DNA of 50,440 nt. It comes from Thermoplasmatales archaeon (lineage in GTDB: Archaea; Thermoplasmatota; E2; DHVEG-1). Below the pieces are notes generated by a model. The model ran no database searches, was not told the DNA's origin, and was given only the letters and a program-made list of their open reading frames with translations. The position numbers and the translations under genes are program-made. Of the stretch, positions 4,946-11,911 are shown one piece after another (position 1 is the first letter of the stretch; each line of letters begins with the position of its first letter). The DNA lies in assembly GCA_020343515.1 (NCBI GenBank), contig CP070798.1, positions 139,189 to 189,628 on the forward strand, written 5' to 3'.

Positions 4946-4966
4946 TGAGTTCTCTTCAGTAAGCCT

Positions 4967-6319
4967 TCATCTCGTCAGTTTTTTGACAATATTATTTATG
5001 ATATTTTCTGATGCGCCCAGATAATTTTTTGGGTTCATGACTTCCTCCAATTCATTCTTTTTGAGTAATTTAGAAATGTTTTTATCTTCCAATAAAACAG
5101 TTAGCAAGTCTTTATCCATACTGGATGCTTTTATAGAACATTTTCTAACAAGCTCATGTGCATCTCCACGGCCCATTCCCTTTTCGACCAGTTTTGTCAT
5201 TACAGCCTCAGCCATTGGCAGACCCTTTGATTTTTCAAGATTTTCCATCATTCTATCTGGATTGACTTGAAGATTTTTGAATACATTATTCATTTGATAC
5301 ACGACCCAGTCAGTAAGAATCAGAGAATGAGGTAAAATAAAACGTTCAGATGATGAATTACAAAGATCACGTTCATGCCATTGAATCGCATTTTCAAATG
5401 CGGGTATAACACTGCTTCGTATCACCCTTGCAAGTCCACAGATCTGCTCGCATACAATCGGGTTTCTCTTATGTGGCATCGCCGAAGAGCCGACCTGTTT
5501 TTTTGACTCAAACGCCTCTGCAACTTCTCCAATTTCACTCCTCTGAAGATTTCTAATTTCAGTTGCAAACTTCTCCATGCTTGTAGCAATATTTGAGAGA
5601 ATTGACAAAAGTTCTATGTATCTATCCCTTCCAACAATTTGTGTTGCTCCCTCCTCTATTCCCAGTTTTAAATCCTGCATCACCAGCTCTTGAATTTTTA
5701 AAACGTGTTTACCCATTGCTGCACCAGTGCCTACCGCGCCAGACATTTTGCCAACAAGGACACGTGAGTTGCATTCACGCATACGTTCTAGATGCCTATC
5801 AACTTCTATGGCATACACAGCCATTTTCAAACCAAAAGTAATTGGAATAGAAAACTGTCCATGCGTCCTACCGAGCATGAGAGTGTTCTTATGCTTCTTT
5901 GCATGAGCCACCAATGTATTTCTCAGTTTTTTTAACTCTGCTTTAATAATATCGGTTGCTTTTGAAAACTGTAAAGCGTTTGCTGTATCAACAATATCAT
6001 AGCTAGTAGCCCCAAGGTGAACATATTTGGCTGCTGCTTCTCCAATACAGACCTCGCCTAGGGCTTTTGTTAATGCCATGATGTCATGCCGGGTCTCTTT
6101 TTCAATTTCTTTTACCCTCTCGATCTTAACAAACTTAACAGAGGCGTTTTTAGAAATTTCATCAGCAGCTTTTTGGGGAATGTTGTCAACTTTCGCATGC
6201 GCTCTAGCTAGTGCAGCCTCCACATCTAATAAATATTGAAGCTTACTTTTTTCACCAAAAACTTCCTTTATTTCTCTTCTCCCATATCTAAAATCAATAG
6301 GGCAAACTGGATTATCCAT
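4967..6319 (-). CDS. purB: Adenylosuccinate lyase
   Basis: PurB acts twice in purine synthesis: it releases fumarate from SAICAR and from adenylosuccinate to give AMP. The 450-residue length fits the fumarase/aspartase superfamily. The family signature appears as GSSAMPHKRNP (the flexible catalytic loop), and TRHDIMALTKAL and LGATSYDIVDT are the other two conserved blocks. The start is the ATG that opens MDNPVCPIDFRYGR, which matches the family N-terminus. It is followed downstream on the same strand by nothing in this window; the neighbouring 121-residue protein lies upstream in the same direction and may be co-transcribed. Confidence 0.96.
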   Translation of the reverse strand: MDNPVCPIDFRYGRREIKEVFGEKSKLQYLLDVEAALARAHAKVDNIPQKAADEISKNASVKFVKIERVKEIEKETRHDIMALTKALGEVCIGEAAAKYVHLGATSYDIVDTANALQFSKATDIIKAELKKLRNTLVAHAKKHKNTLMLGRTHGQFSIPITFGLKMAVYAIEVDRHLERMRECNSRVLVGKMSGAVGTGAAMGKHVLKIQELVMQDLKLGIEEGATQIVGRDRYIELLSILSNIATSMEKFATEIRNLQRSEIGEVAEAFESKKQVGSSAMPHKRNPIVCEQICGLARVIRSSVIPAFENAIQWHERDLCNSSSERFILPHSLILTDWVVYQMNNVFKNLQVNPDRMMENLEKSKGLPMAEAVMTKLVEKGMGRGDAHELVRKCSIKASSMDKDLLTVLLEDKNISKLLKKNELEEVMNPKNYLGASENIINNIVKKLTR

Positions 6320-6368
6320 AGGCTCTCCAAAACTGAATAAAATAATAGTTAATGTCTTTTTGGGCTTA

Positions 6369-6734
6369 CTAACATATGTCTTTTAATAAAACTGATAATT
6401 CCTTTGTAATATTTTTTATTCTAGGATAGTGTCTATTGAGTTTTTCAACAAGTTCATGCAATTGTTTTATAGTCCCCATAATAAGAATATTGGCACGTTC
6501 ATTTTTTAACTCAAATGCATCCTTAGGAATAGCTACCTCTCCTCCGATAGAGAGCATGTCCTGTTTAATAATAATGGCATCTTGAAGTATTACGTTTTCT
6601 ACTTTAATAGCTTTAAAAATCGCCTTCGGCGCCATGATTTCGATGCTTTTAGGGTCACTTCCTATCTTTTGAATTTCATTTTTCGCATCTTCCAGAGATA
6701 CAATTTCTATAAATTTAGAATTATGATCATTCAT
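6369..6734 (-). CDS. Free-standing domain resembling the N-terminal extension of some dihydropteroate synthases
   Basis: The 121-residue soluble protein has no signal peptide or membrane segment. Its middle (PKSIEIMAPKAIFKAIKV, then KQDMLSIGGEVAIPKDAFEL, then ILIMGTIKQLHELVEKLN) resembles, from memory, the extension found before the TIM barrel of certain archaeal and clostridial dihydropteroate synthases: K-x-MLSLGG-x-A-P and LxMGTxxQ. No DHPS catalytic domain is encoded next to it. A role in folate or tetrahydromethanopterin-type pterin synthesis is possible but not shown. It sits 49 bp upstream of purB on the same strand, so a shared transcript is likely. The homology call is moderate; the function is unknown. 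Confidence 0.5.
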   Translation of the reverse strand: MNDHNSKFIEIVSLEDAKNEIQKIGSDPKSIEIMAPKAIFKAIKVENVILQDAIIIKQDMLSIGGEVAIPKDAFELKNERANILIMGTIKQLHELVEKLNRHYPRIKNITKELSVLLKDIC

Positions 6735-6813
6735 ATTTGGAAGAAAATATGTCAGCCTTATAATAAATTATTCAAATAATACATAGCATTCCTATTCTGT
6801 AGTGGATTGCCAA

Positions 6814-7224
6814 ATGAGAGGCAGCTATCTTATGCTAGTGGAACTAAAAAACCCTAAAAAAATTCAAATAGGCAACCTTAGAGACATAGATTTCAAAAAA
6901 GGTTTCTATATCTATGTGGGCTCAGCTCTGAGTGGATTAAACCAACGCATACAACGACATCTTAGAAAACAAAAAAAGATTCATTGGCACATTGATTATC
7001 TGTTGACCCATGCAAAAATTGTGGACATTTTTTACAAACAAAGCACGCTCAAGGAGGAGTGTTGCATTGCAAAAATATTAGAAAAAGAACTCTCAATAAT
7101 TCCCAATTTTGGTTGTAGTGATTGCACTTGTAAAAGCCATCTTTTTCATGGCTCCTATGAAGATATAAAAAATGCTATTGCTAATCTAGAAATTAAACAA
7201 TATTCGATAAATGCAAAATCTTAA
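6814..7224 (+). CDS. DUF123 family protein (GIY-YIG-like)
   Basis: The sequence shows the whole DUF123 pattern: GSYLMLVEL, KGFYIYVGSALSGLNQRIQRHLR, KIHWHIDYLL, ECCIAKIL and FGCSDCTCKSHLF. DUF123 proteins are common in archaea. They are sometimes fused to endonuclease III and are related to the GIY-YIG fold (the YIYVGSA strand), so a nucleic-acid role is suspected but unproved. I chose ATG 6814 because MRGSY matches the family N-terminus; a GTG four codons earlier (6802) is possible. It is divergent from the DHPS-N-like gene and 27 bp before cutA, so the two may share a transcript. Confidence 0.85.
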   Translation: MRGSYLMLVELKNPKKIQIGNLRDIDFKKGFYIYVGSALSGLNQRIQRHLRKQKKIHWHIDYLLTHAKIVDIFYKQSTLKEECCIAKILEKELSIIPNFGCSDCTCKSHLFHGSYEDIKNAIANLEIKQYSINAKS

Positions 7225-7251
7225 AACTGGTTTTAATTATAGGATAAAAGG

Positions 7252-7563
7252 ATGGTTGCTGCAATTTATTCTATCACCGGCAATATAGATGATGCAAAGA
7301 AAATCGCGCGTTTATTAGTTGAAGAAAAACTGGTTGCATGTGTTAATATAATTCCAAAGATAGAGTCAGTTTATAGGTGGCAAGGAAAGATTGAAGAAGA
7401 AAGTGAATGTGTTTTAATAGCAAAGACAACAGATAAAAATATAGATAAAACGATACAAAGGATACAGGAAATCCATCCATATGGCGTGCCAGATATCGTC
7501 GTTCTTCCAATTGTTAAGGGGTTAAAAGAATATCTTGATTATGTTGAAGATGAGACAAAATGA
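7252..7563 (+). CDS. cutA: CutA1 divalent-cation tolerance protein
   Basis: The 103-residue protein has the compact CutA1 ferredoxin-like fold sequence: ARLLVEEKLVACVNIIP, SVYRWQGKIEEESECVLIAKT and HPYGVPDIVVLPI. CutA1 forms very stable trimers. It was linked genetically to copper tolerance in bacteria, but its biochemical role is still unclear; a PII-like signalling role has been proposed. The AGGATAAAAGG stretch just before the ATG supplies a ribosome site. It follows the DUF123 gene closely and converges with the radical SAM gene. Confidence 0.93.
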   Translation: MVAAIYSITGNIDDAKKIARLLVEEKLVACVNIIPKIESVYRWQGKIEEESECVLIAKTTDKNIDKTIQRIQEIHPYGVPDIVVLPIVKGLKEYLDYVEDETK

Positions 7564-7680
7564 AGCTTGCTCCTTTGGTTTCAAATTGGCTCTCCTGGTA
7601 ATGAGCATCTATGGCTATCTTATAAGGTGAGTGAATAACCCCTATGGCTATGAGATTAACTGGTATTTTTTTCACGGTTT

Positions 7681-8448
7681 CTATGGCTCCATTCTTCTTC
7701 TTTTAATAAGTTCCATCATGTCTAAAGGAACTGTCACAGGTTTCTGACTTTTGTAAACACAGAGTGTATTTAATCCGGCAAAAGCCTTTTCTATTTCATC
7801 TAACTCTTCTTTCGACAAGGGCTGTATGTTACATTGTCTAAGAGGAGTATTAATTTGTACTTCGTCCGGGTGAATCTTTTTTGCTAGTTGTGCAAGGTCA
7901 TTTGCATAATCTTTGTTTTCTTTCATAAACATGATTTGTAGAGCAAATTTTCCATGGAAACCTTGACGAAGTTCTTTTATTCCTTTAAGTGTTTTTTCGA
8001 ATGTTATTCCATTGGCAGGGCGGTTAATTTTCTGGAAAAGCTCTTTATTGGGTGCATCAAGTTTTGCCACAATAATATCTAGGTTACCAAGGGTTTCATA
8101 TACGTTTTTATCATAGAGTAAAGTGGAATTTGTTAGTATTGCCAACGGTATGTCGGTGAATCCTTTTATTAGATTTACGACTTCATGCATATTCTTCGCA
8201 AGCGTTGGTTCCCCTGTCCCAGAAAAGGTGATCACGTCGGGTGTTGTTTGCTTTAGGGCATTCTTTAACTCTTTTTCTACATTTTTTGTTGATACAAATG
8301 TGTCTCTTTGCGAGGTGATTTTGTCTGATTTTTCTAACTGACAGTATATGCAGTCAAAGGAGCATATCTTTTTTTCTGAACAAAGGAGATCTACACCCAG
8401 TGATCTACCTAATCTCCATGATGCAATGGGCCCGTAGACTATTTTCAT
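7681..8448 (-). CDS. Radical SAM protein, COG0731 family
   Basis: The N-terminus reads FGPIASWRLGRSLGVDLL-like (VYGPIASWRLGRSLGVDL), followed by CSFDCIYC, the CxxxCxxC that holds the SAM-binding 4Fe-4S cluster. FSGTGEPTL is the conserved GGE-like SAM motif region and ILTNSTLL follows. The 255-residue protein belongs to a family of small radical SAM enzymes widespread in archaea and anaerobic bacteria, mostly without a known substrate. I chose the ATG at 8448, since MKIVYGP is the family N-terminus; another ATG at 8484 would add 12 residues. It reads away from the nrdR promoter. Confidence 0.85.
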   Translation of the reverse strand: MKIVYGPIASWRLGRSLGVDLLCSEKKICSFDCIYCQLEKSDKITSQRDTFVSTKNVEKELKNALKQTTPDVITFSGTGEPTLAKNMHEVVNLIKGFTDIPLAILTNSTLLYDKNVYETLGNLDIIVAKLDAPNKELFQKINRPANGITFEKTLKGIKELRQGFHGKFALQIMFMKENKDYANDLAQLAKKIHPDEVQINTPLRQCNIQPLSKEELDEIEKAFAGLNTLCVYKSQKPVTVPLDMMELIKRRRMEP

Positions 8449-8550
8449 GATGTTTGACGAAACAAATCTTGTATATTTAATCATGATGCATTCAAGTCTA
8501 AAAAATGCTAATTTTCGGTAAAAATGGAAAGGTTTAAAAAGTCTAATAGT

Positions 8551-8597
8551 ATACTATATAATGTGGATTTGTATTTTTAAAGTACAATATATTGTGC
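8551..8597 (+). promoter_or_regulatory. Tandem NrdR-box-like operators overlapping the nrdRDG promoter
   Basis: Two 16-mers resemble the NrdR box acaCwAtATaTwGtgt. Box 1 is ATACTATATAATGTGG (8551-8566) and box 2 is GTACAATATATTGTGC (8582-8597), each matching at about 13 of 16 positions. Box 2 contains a perfect 12-bp palindrome, ACAATATATTGT. Their starts are 31 bp apart with a 15-bp linker, the three-turn spacing known for bacterial NrdR. Box 1 includes the likely TATA element (CTATATAA). Box 2 ends 13 bp before the nrdR ATG, near the expected start of transcription, so bound NrdR would block TBP and polymerase. Confidence 0.75.
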
Positions 8598-8610
8598 CTG
8601 GGGTGCCTGG

Positions 8611-9081
8611 ATGAATTGTCCATATTGTAACCATGTCGAGACCAAAGTAACCGACTCCCGCGATACCGGGAATTACACAATTCGTAGAAGACGAGAGTGC
8701 CTGAAATGCAATAGGCGATTTACTACATATGAGTATATTGAGATGTCGCCACTTTATGTCATTAAAAAAGATGGTAGAAGAGAAAAATTTGAGAGAAACA
8801 AAATCAAAAATGGACTAATGAAGGCACTTGAAAAACGTCCAATCAGCCATGATAAGATAGAAGAAATGCTTAACTCCATGGAAGAAAAAATAAGAAAAAA
8901 CGGTAAAGAGGAAATCGAAAGTTCAACTATAGGAGAATATGTAATGGAAACTCTGAAAGATACTGACCAAGTAGCCTACATACGGTTTGCCTCTGTTTAT
9001 CGATCATTTACTGACGTTACATCATTTGAAAAAGAAGTTAAAAATTTAATAGAACAATACAAAGGAGAGATAAAAAAATGA
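8611..9081 (+). CDS. nrdR: Transcriptional repressor NrdR
   Basis: NrdR senses the ATP/dATP ratio and represses ribonucleotide reductase genes. The N-terminal zinc ribbon has MNCPYC and CLKCNRRF (four Cys, DNA binding). An ATP-cone follows from about residue 46 (YVIKKDGRREKFERNKIKNG), and the C-terminus carries VAYIRFASVYRSF. At 156 residues it is standard length. The promoter holds two NrdR-like boxes, so autoregulation is likely. Its stop overlaps the nrdD start in an ATGA, which implies translational coupling. NrdR is best known from bacteria; its occurrence in archaea is patchy. Confidence 0.96.
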   Translation: MNCPYCNHVETKVTDSRDTGNYTIRRRRECLKCNRRFTTYEYIEMSPLYVIKKDGRREKFERNKIKNGLMKALEKRPISHDKIEEMLNSMEEKIRKNGKEEIESSTIGEYVMETLKDTDQVAYIRFASVYRSFTDVTSFEKEVKNLIEQYKGEIKK

Positions 9082-11219
9082 TACGCAAAATTAAGAAAAG
9101 AGATAGAAAAGTTGTCGATTTCAACCCAATAAAAATAACTGATGCAATTTGGAAGGCGGCGCAAGCGGTAGGCGGAAAGGATTACAAAAAATCAGTTGAA
9201 CTTACAGATAAAGTTCTAGAGAGATTAAAAAAAGAACTTAAAAAAGGTGAGATACCAACTGTTGAACAAGTACAGGATACAGTTGAGAAAACACTTATTG
9301 AAGAAGGCCATGCGAAGACAGCAAAGGCTTATATCCTATATAGAAAACAACATCAGGATATACGTGAAATTGGCGGATTGTTAAAAGACATAGACGTAGT
9401 GGATGGCTACCTCAGTATGATGGATTGGAAGGTAAAAGAGAACAGCAACATGAGCTACTCTCTACAAGGACTAAATGTATATGCCACAGAAAATATTATC
9501 TCTCATTATTGGCTTAACAAGATTTATCCTCCAGAAATTGGTGAGGCGCATGTTAAAGGTTGTTATCATATTCACGACCTCGGCACGCTCGGAGCGTACT
9601 GCGTGGGGTGGGATCTCAAAGACATACTACTAATGGGTTTCAAGGGAGTAGCAGGTAAAATTGAAAGTAAACCTGCTAAACACTTCAGTACTGCACTTAT
9701 GCAAATTGTAAACTATCTCTATACTCTTCAGGGCGAGGCAGCAGGTGCACAAGCACTATCAAACTTCGATAGCCTTTTAGCACCATTTATAAGATATGAT
9801 GGTCTCAAATACAAAGATGTTAAACAAGAAATGCAGAAATTCTTATTTAACATGAATGTTCCGACAAGGGTGGGCTTCCAGTCACCATTCTCCAACTGTA
9901 CTTTAGATCTCACTATTCCCAGCTATATGGCTGATGAACCTGTAATAATTGGTGGAGAACTAAAAGATGACAACTATAGTGATTTTGCAGATGAAATGGA
10001 CATGATCAACCAAGCCTTCGCAGAAGTCATGCTGGAAGGTGACGCTAAAGGTCGTCCTATGACGTTTCCGATTCCAACTTACAACATTACCAAAGATTTT
10101 AACTGGAATAATGATGGCTTGGATCCAATATGGGAGATGACTGCGAAGTATGGAAATCCATATTTTTCAAATTTTATCAACAGTGATATGAAACCAGATG
10201 ATGCTCGCAGTATGTGTTGCAGACTTAGGTTGGACAACAGGGAACTTCGGAAACGTGGAGGAGGATTATTTGGTGCAAACCCAAAAACTGGAGCTATAGG
10301 CGTAGTAACTATCAACATGCCACAAATTGGATACCTAGCAAAAGACGATAAAGATTTTTTTGAAAGGTTAGATCAATTAATGGACCTAGCTAAGCAAAGC
10401 CTGGAAATCAAAAGAGAAATTATAGAAAACCTAACACATAGTGGTCTACATCCCTACTCGCGGTTCTATCTTCAGGATGTGAAGAAAACCTTTGGTGAGT
10501 ACTGGAAAAATCATTTCTCCACTATCGGTTTGATTGGTATGAATGATGCCTTGCTTAACTTTATAAATAAAAGTATAGGCGATAAAGAGGGTAAAGCCTT
10601 TGCGGAAAAAATCCTAGATCATATGAGGGATAAGATGGCTGATTTTCAGGAGGAAACTGGTAATATTTTTAATCTTGAAGCGACGCCAGCCGAGGGGTGC
10701 TCGTACAGAATTGCCAGGGTTGATAAAGCACAGTATCCTGACATTCGTGCTTATAACCAGGAATTTTATGGTGATGGTGGAAAAGGTGTTGAACCCTACT
10801 ATACAAACTCTACTCAGCTTCCTGTCGGTTTTACAACTGATGTTTTTGAAGCACTGGATTTGCAGGATTCATTGCAGTCGAAGTACACTGGTGGTACAGT
10901 ACTGCATATCTATTTGGGCGAAGAACAACCTTCTATTGGGGCAGTAAAGAAACTAGTGCGTAAAATAGCAGAGAATTATTCACTTCCATATTATACCATT
11001 ACTCCGACATTTAGTGTCTGCCCAGATCATGGTTATATCCCTGGTAAACATCAGACCTGTCCAACATGTAAGGCCGAGGATAGAACCACTGAATGTGAAG
11101 TCTATTCTCGCGTAGTTGGTTATCTAAGACCGGTAAGTCAATGGAATCGCGGCAAGCAGCAAGAATTCAAAGATCGTAAAACCTTTAACATTATAAAAAA
11201 GAAAGTAATGGTTTCATAA
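9078..11219 (+). CDS. nrdD: Anaerobic (class III) ribonucleoside-triphosphate reductase
   Basis: NrdD makes dNTPs from NTPs using a glycyl radical, without oxygen. An N-terminal ATP-cone (about residues 1-95, KRDRKVVDFNPIKITDAIWKA) provides allosteric activity control. The active-site Cys is in SNCTLDL (about residue 274). Near the C-terminus, CPDHGYI and CPTC provide zinc ligands, and SRVVGYLRP carries the glycyl-radical Gly (about residue 681). The 713-residue length is normal. Its start overlaps nrdR by 4 bp and its stop overlaps nrdG by 1 bp, so the three genes form one operon controlled by NrdR. Confidence 0.97.
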   Translation: MIRKIKKRDRKVVDFNPIKITDAIWKAAQAVGGKDYKKSVELTDKVLERLKKELKKGEIPTVEQVQDTVEKTLIEEGHAKTAKAYILYRKQHQDIREIGGLLKDIDVVDGYLSMMDWKVKENSNMSYSLQGLNVYATENIISHYWLNKIYPPEIGEAHVKGCYHIHDLGTLGAYCVGWDLKDILLMGFKGVAGKIESKPAKHFSTALMQIVNYLYTLQGEAAGAQALSNFDSLLAPFIRYDGLKYKDVKQEMQKFLFNMNVPTRVGFQSPFSNCTLDLTIPSYMADEPVIIGGELKDDNYSDFADEMDMINQAFAEVMLEGDAKGRPMTFPIPTYNITKDFNWNNDGLDPIWEMTAKYGNPYFSNFINSDMKPDDARSMCCRLRLDNRELRKRGGGLFGANPKTGAIGVVTINMPQIGYLAKDDKDFFERLDQLMDLAKQSLEIKREIIENLTHSGLHPYSRFYLQDVKKTFGEYWKNHFSTIGLIGMNDALLNFINKSIGDKEGKAFAEKILDHMRDKMADFQEETGNIFNLEATPAEGCSYRIARVDKAQYPDIRAYNQEFYGDGGKGVEPYYTNSTQLPVGFTTDVFEALDLQDSLQSKYTGGTVLHIYLGEEQPSIGAVKKLVRKIAENYSLPYYTITPTFSVCPDHGYIPGKHQTCPTCKAEDRTTECEVYSRVVGYLRPVSQWNRGKQQEFKDRKTFNIIKKKVMVS

Positions 11220-11911
11220 TGAAAATCGGAGGATTTCAGAAAACAACGCTGCTCGATTTTCCCGATAAAGTTAGTGCGATTATCTGGACCATTGACTGTA
11301 ATTTCCGCTGTCCATTTTGCTACAATAAAAACCTTGTATTTGGTGAAGCAAACAGCATCTCAGAGGTAGAGGTTCTTTCTTTCCTAAAAGAACGTAAAGG
11401 ATTACTGGAGGGTCTGGTTGTTTCTGGTGGAGAACCACTTTTACAAGAAGACCTTATTAATTTTACAAATAAAGTAAAAAAACTAGGTTATCTCATAAAA
11501 ATTGATACGAATGGTACGTTCCCTAATCGGCTTAAAGAGCTTATCAATTACAAACTCATTGACTATGTATCAATGGATATTAAAGCACCGAAAAAGAAAT
11601 ACGATCAGCTTGCTGGTGTGAAGACAGACCTTTCTAAGATTGAAGAATCCATTGACCTGATAAAAAATCACGCTTCTGATTATGAATTTAAAACAACGTT
11701 TGCCCCAAGGCTTCTTTATAAAGAAGACATTATCGAGATTGCGAAATGGTTGGAGGGATCAGAACGTTTTTATCTTCAGCAGTTCAAGAATATTACACCA
11801 TTGGTTTCATCAAAATTTGATAACGTTGCACCCTATCCTAGAGAATACTTCATTGAAACATTAGATTTAGTTAAACCATTTATCAAAAACTGTTATGTTA
11901 GAGGAGTTTGA
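11219..11911 (+). CDS. nrdG: Anaerobic ribonucleotide reductase activating protein
   Basis: This radical SAM activase puts the glycyl radical on NrdD. CNFRCPFC (about residues 27-34) is the cluster-binding CxxxCxxC, and VVSGGEPLL is the SAM-binding GGE motif. The N-terminus KIGGFQKTTLLDFPDKVSA fits the longer NrdG/PflA-like subtype common in archaea and Thermotogales. At 230 residues it is longer than the short enterobacterial form. The TAATG overlap with nrdD implies coupled translation. It is the last gene of the operon; a possible terminator hairpin lies 51 bp downstream. Confidence 0.94.
   Translation: MKIGGFQKTTLLDFPDKVSAIIWTIDCNFRCPFCYNKNLVFGEANSISEVEVLSFLKERKGLLEGLVVSGGEPLLQEDLINFTNKVKKLGYLIKIDTNGTFPNRLKELINYKLIDYVSMDIKAPKKKYDQLAGVKTDLSKIEESIDLIKNHASDYEFKTTFAPRLLYKEDIIEIAKWLEGSERFYLQQFKNITPLVSSKFDNVAPYPREYFIETLDLVKPFIKNCYVRGV

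Follow-up and report, generated by a model that had tools for sequence, protein, structure and literature searches.

How a repressor that evolved on sigma-factor promoters can work on the eukaryote-like transcription machinery of archaea is the question raised by the locus described here. The repressor is NrdR, through which bacteria chiefly sense dATP at the level of transcription. According to recent papers, PMC9110341 among them, NrdR is rare in archaea, and a 2014 review held the NrdR box to be absent from them (PMC4009431). The locus lies in a stretch of 50,440 nucleotides (hereafter the window), part of a single-contig genome of 1.92 Mb whose nearest named relatives are Candidatus Thermoplasmatota MAGs. 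These include SM1-50 and 3300003432D, both classed as Thermoprofundales (MBG-D) in PMC6461988; the source organism is an uncultured Thermoplasmatota archaeon of the Thermoprofundales (MBG-D) lineage, from sediment. Our data make it probable that two boxes before nrdR constitute the operator of an autoregulated nrdR-nrdD-nrdG operon, at which dATP-loaded NrdR would block transcription at a step after the binding of TBP and TFB.

The operon and its repressor

Profile matches (Table 1) bear out the nrdRDG operon as it had been described from the bare sequence. The genes are tightly packed – the nrdD start overlaps the nrdR stop, and the nrdG start the nrdD stop – and their order, nrdR to nrdD to nrdG, is conserved among relatives. 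NrdD has an ATP-cone of its own.

Table 1. Coordinates of the features of the nrdRDG locus (positions within the window)
Feature	Position	Strand	Description
Divergent radical-SAM gene	7681-8484	-	
Intergenic region	8485-8610		126 bp, between the divergent radical-SAM gene and nrdR
BRE/TATA	8526-8540	+	likely nrdRDG core promoter; BRE GGAAAG 8526-8531, TATA TTTAAAAA 8533-8540
NrdR box 1	8551-8566	+	ATACTATATAATGTGG; C4 and G13 invariant in 35/35 promoters
Inter-box spacer	8567-8581	+	15 bp; sequence poorly conserved, length fixed
NrdR box 2	8582-8597	+	GTACAATATATTGTGC; within the predicted 5' leader
Shine-Dalgarno-like GGGGTG	8600-8605	+	5 nt ahead of the ATG at 8611; GGTG/GGAG-like stretch in relatives
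nrdR	8611-9081	+	156 aa; Zn-ribbon and ATP-cone repressor; PF22811, PF03477, TIGR00244
nrdD	9078-11219	+	class III (anaerobic) ribonucleotide reductase; PF13597 664 bits, TIGR02487 583 bits
nrdG	11219-11911	+	radical-SAM activase (NrdG2); TIGR02495 210 bits

The repressor itself has the make-up of the NrdR family, an N-terminal Zn-ribbon with two CxxC pairs followed by a C-terminal ATP-cone, and is recognised by PF22811 (66 bits), PF03477 (89 bits) and TIGR00244 (194 bits against a cut-off of 124.65). We aligned it to the solved NrdR chains of S. coelicolor and E. coli. The DNA-contact residues D15, R17 and RRRR (R25-R28) are kept, D15 and R17 being those that read bases, as are the nucleotide-site residues V50, K52, E58, K64, K71, F126, V129 and Y130. 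In S. coelicolor the nucleotide sites, which hold an inner ATP and an outer dATP or ATP, are formed by K50, R51, E56, K62, K69, Q72, F124, V127 and Y128 (PMC9110341); two of these are replaced, R51 by K53 and Q72 by E74 of the window protein. Judged by alignment, then, the residues for DNA contact and for dATP/ATP sensing are all present or conservatively replaced. The linker between the Zn-ribbon and the ATP-cone looks like the seven residues of E. coli and not the four of S. coelicolor (PMC12051234), because the alignment to E. coli NrdR runs through this region without a gap.

The box pair and its promoter

The two predicted 16-mers are present in the sequence with their starts 31 bp apart, and box 2 ends 13 bp before the nrdR ATG. 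Both are palindromic and carry the conserved C and G; each differs from the bacterial consensus acaCwAtATaTwGtgt at three positions, mostly outer ones. Single boxes with up to three mismatches are not significant by themselves (four matches in the window against 1.34 expected). The pair is a different matter: two simulations of 10 million bases each, one with the composition of the window and one with that of the local intergenic DNA, contained no equal to its score at the 31-bp offset, and it is the top-scoring pair within the window. It is thus the pair, and not the single box, that exceeds chance. When up to three mismatches to the pair pattern were allowed across the whole genome of 1.92 Mb, the window pair was the sole site among the matches listed, with 0 mismatches; a backwards control pattern also returned one match. 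When the operator pattern was tightened to require T at each outer end, this genome gave no match, since the boxes of the window have G and C as their final letters. Spacing too is as in bacteria: the spacer leaves the boxes an integral number of helical turns apart and falls within the optimum of 15-17 bp measured for four bacterial NrdRs (PMC12051234).

Where the pair stands relative to the core promoter was examined with a BRE/TATA matrix trained on 32 relatives, the window excluded. The matrix gives 17.8 bits at 8525-8542; the next distinct place scores -1.5, and the start of box 1 -3.7. On these scores we reject a TATA element within box 1, and with it the claim of the original prediction that the one good TATA is overlapped by the first box. 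The operator does not overlap the BRE/TATA but begins 10 bp downstream of its end at 8540. This BRE/TATA is conserved in most family relatives; across 35 aligned promoters it appears as a block in columns -28 to -11 before box 1 (GAAA, then TTTAAAAA or TTTATATA). Over 400 kb of the window's own genome matches to the matrix were enriched no more than about 3-fold ahead of other genes, and the matrix fitted the four tRNA genes found there poorly; since it failed to pick out the tRNA promoters, the distance from TATA to start is uncalibrated for this genome. We placed the start site by the distance usual in archaea. The predicted start falls at about 8561-8565, inside box 1, which would put box 2 in the leader, ahead of the Shine-Dalgarno-like motif; use of another start farther downstream would change this geometry. 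Repression had been proposed to work by covering both TATA and start site: the TATA is left uncovered, while the start site, as predicted, lies within box 1. What stands is the broader proposal, an operator pair of bacterial type and bacterial spacing placed on an archaeal promoter before nrdRDG.

Conservation among relatives

Conservation of the pair upstream of nrdR in relatives had been named as a check on the prediction. A search of 390 genomes of the phylum with the TIGR00244 profile found NrdR above the cut-off in most of the family; elsewhere in the phylum it is patchy, and the listed sister families of the same order have none. A pattern search finds the pair in 34 of the family's 45 genomes. 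Wherever the 5' end of nrdR is assembled, as it is in 34 genomes of the family, the pair stands before the gene: 33 were recognised by the pattern (31 bp), and one, G217, has a spacing of 32 bp. Two further genomes with NrdR, in which the gene start is missing from the assembly, are left out of this count, and the 34th pattern match (G258) has its operator at a contig end. The same pattern found no pair in 35 genomes of the same class outside the family, none of which has NrdR above the cut-off. Genomes that seemed to have nrdD without nrdR proved to be contig-edge breaks or to hold only an nrdD fragment, and one genome (G111, 94% complete) lacks nrdR, nrdD and the pair alike.

The promoters themselves tell the same story. 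In a set of 37 loci (nrdR 58-100% identical; the window's own genome included, with a few loci from other families of the phylum) the box starts are 31 bp apart in 35, giving a 15-bp spacer, and 32 bp apart in two, giving 16 bp. C4 and G13 are invariant in both boxes of the 35 aligned promoters, the spacer is near background, and box 2 in relatives is a near-perfect palindrome, ATACAATATATTGTAT; as read from the alignment, column conservation matches the pattern of a protein-bound site. The invariant bases are the same G-C pairs whose change cuts binding by S. coelicolor NrdR 50-fold or more (PMC9110341), which supports the identification of the boxes as an NrdR operator.

Some relatives hold further traces of the system. 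G088 has the nrdR-type promoter, box pair included, a second time (C30, L115, 3735-3781); no nrdR or other nrd gene was seen behind it and no open reading frame of 90 aa or more lies directly downstream, so that it is perhaps a relic or a small target of another kind. A genome of the same genus contains a decayed second nrdR-like stretch with seven stops (L048, G108:C1:89830-90123). In several relatives nrdD is interrupted in frame by inteins (L058/L059, nrdD 4962-8093, where the insert ends in THN before C); G069, G160, G178, G181, G205, G222 and G243 have open frames of 1056-1747 aa corresponding to nrdD with inteins, and there seem to be up to three inserts within one nrdD gene.

Alternative explanations

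Could NrdR bind here and yet act by keeping TBP and TFB off the DNA, either with box 1 itself containing the TATA (TATACTATATAA) or with the bent complex extending upstream as far as the TATA? Box 1 is A+T-rich and contains TATATAAT, and in two genomes of another family (f54; L024, L005) hardly any DNA separates box 1 from the best TATA-like element. However, most promoters of the family have a conserved BRE/TATA ahead of box 1, the two places differ widely in matrix score in the window, as reported above, and the box 1 of some family relatives, ATACTACATTTTGTAG, has no TATA inside. We consider occlusion of this kind improbable.

Two further readings, both of which we judge very unlikely, differ over the regulator or the gene that the pair belongs to. 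The palindromes might be sites of another regulator, or hairpins in the leader RNA, with their likeness to NrdR boxes secondary; palindromes are generic, and box 2, in the predicted leader, is able to form a weak hairpin. But box 1 spans the predicted start and would not be fully transcribed, and an RNA element was rejected given that no Rfam family matches in the window. Nor would another regulator readily account for a 31-32 bp spacing held through 37 promoters with invariant specificity bases, or for a single site per genome, before nrdR, in nearly all genomes. Alternatively the pair might serve the divergent radical-SAM gene as much as nrdR, for the two genes have the short intergenic region in common and the neighbour is kept in several relatives. 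Against this, many relatives with the pair have no such neighbour within the stretch examined, and the pair is still found at about the same place before nrdR.

Proposed mechanism and extent of the regulon

For the NrdR operator of nrdRDG, we infer binding, repression, a dATP response, the blocked step and the start site as follows. At high dATP, NrdR loaded with dATP and ATP would assemble into a tetramer that holds box 1 and box 2 at once, from one side of the double helix, at a distance of three turns. With box 1 beginning 10 bp past the TATA, the stretch bound and bent by NrdR would run from roughly -12 to +35; TBP and TFB could still reach the BRE/TATA while NrdR was bound, and it would be the recruitment of RNA polymerase, or melting at the start site, that was blocked. 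With ATP alone in its sites NrdR would leave the DNA and the operon would be expressed. A block after TBP/TFB binding is favoured because box 1 lies downstream of the TATA and over the predicted start: in archaea, regulators that bind past the promoter elements inhibit the recruitment of polymerase, whereas those bound within the promoter hinder TBP or TFB (PMC5937170).

The only other reductase found in the genome is a class II enzyme, nrdJ, of 690 aa with an ATP-cone-like N-terminus. It is encoded at about 1.54 Mb, adjoining a ribosomal-protein cluster (G000:C1:1544248-1546320; L079 749-2821). A search of the region upstream of nrdJ found no box pair and one weak box-like stretch, and control of nrdJ by NrdR was on this ground rejected. 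Because nrdJ lacks the pair, NrdR appears to serve the class III operon and its own gene alone; the two reductases of this one genome seem to be under different control.

Comparison with known systems

NrdR, its boxes and their spacing are already known from bacteria; what is new is to meet this operator, at a fixed geometry, with another transcription machinery. The bacterial regulons (S. coelicolor nrdRJ and nrdAB; E. coli nrdHIEF, nrdDG and nrdAB; PMC9110341, PMC12176259, PMC12051234) resemble the window in the protein family, its domain order and its contact and sensing residues, and in tandem boxes with a 15-bp spacer over the start region; S. coelicolor nrdRJ further shares the autoregulation proposed here, together with a reductase operon. 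They differ in that the window has a TBP/TFB promoter instead of a sigma factor, and one dedicated target in its genome despite a second reductase. The boxes differ too: those of the family read ATACnATAT..TGTAt, most relatives having T/A rather than C/G at positions 2 and 15. That such an operator is conserved on a promoter of the TBP/TFB type makes the question posed at the outset testable in vitro.

Archaeal repressors that bind downstream of TATA form a described class (PMC5937170, PMC5569661). Their sites, like the box pair, lie over the start region of their own promoters. They are not NrdR homologues, and their known ligands are other than dATP and ATP.

NrdR in other archaea

Beyond the family, nrdR is present in seven genomes of a different class of the same phylum and in G026, with a class II reductase gene following it in most. 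In two of these (L035, L042) the pairs have a spacing of 32 bp and the TATA matrix peaks 27-28 bp before box 1.

Haloarchaeal plasmids carry nrdR at the head of class I operons, in the orders nrdR-nrdB-nrdA or nrdR-nrdA-nrdB (Natronomonas pharaonis PL131, Halomicrobium pHmuk01 and others; PMC3019208). On six such plasmids (L171-L176) tandem box-like palindromes are seen about 77 to 31 bp before nrdR, their starts 29 bp apart, or 30 in Natronomonas pharaonis. In 6/6 the peak of the family-trained BRE/TATA matrix falls exactly at -26 relative to box 1, the offset found in the window's own family, though the six promoters are related to each other and do not amount to six independent cases; the TATA-like element itself stands 18-19 bp before box 1. 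Thus NrdR comes first in a reductase operon and box-like palindromes precede it at the same distance from the TATA-like element; unlike the window, these operons encode a class I reductase, their box starts are 29-30 bp apart, the boxes are richer in G+C and the NrdRs are about 40% identical. A tree of NrdR groups the family's proteins together (support 92/94) and places the haloarchaeal and most nrdJ-linked NrdRs in another group; with few bacteria and long branches, it names no donor. Bacterial nrdR loci scanned as a rough control gave no pairs that stood out before nrdR itself.

Our literature search found no paper linking NrdR with haloarchaea, and no published footprints, binding assays or transcript measurements for the NrdR of any archaeon. 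Boxes have been sought in GTDB representatives, with an iterated profile of 935 sequences (PMC9110341), which may already include some sites from archaea that went undescribed. The nrdRBA plasmids of cultured haloarchaea would allow a test in living cells.

Whether archaea share a general architecture of NrdR operators is, on these comparisons, an even call. It would span at least three groups and reductase classes I, II and III, with one box over the transcription start, some 18-20 bp on from where the TATA begins, and a block after TBP/TFB binding; spacing would vary with the lineage, haloarchaea having 29-30 bp, Thermoplasmatota 31-32 bp and one class II family 52 bp. The last arrangement was observed in two genomes of that one family only (G013 and G043; L036 and L038), where nrdR-nrdJ operons have NrdR-like boxes exactly 52 bp, or about five turns, apart, flanking a BRE/TATA-like element and lying about 130 to 38 bp before nrdR.
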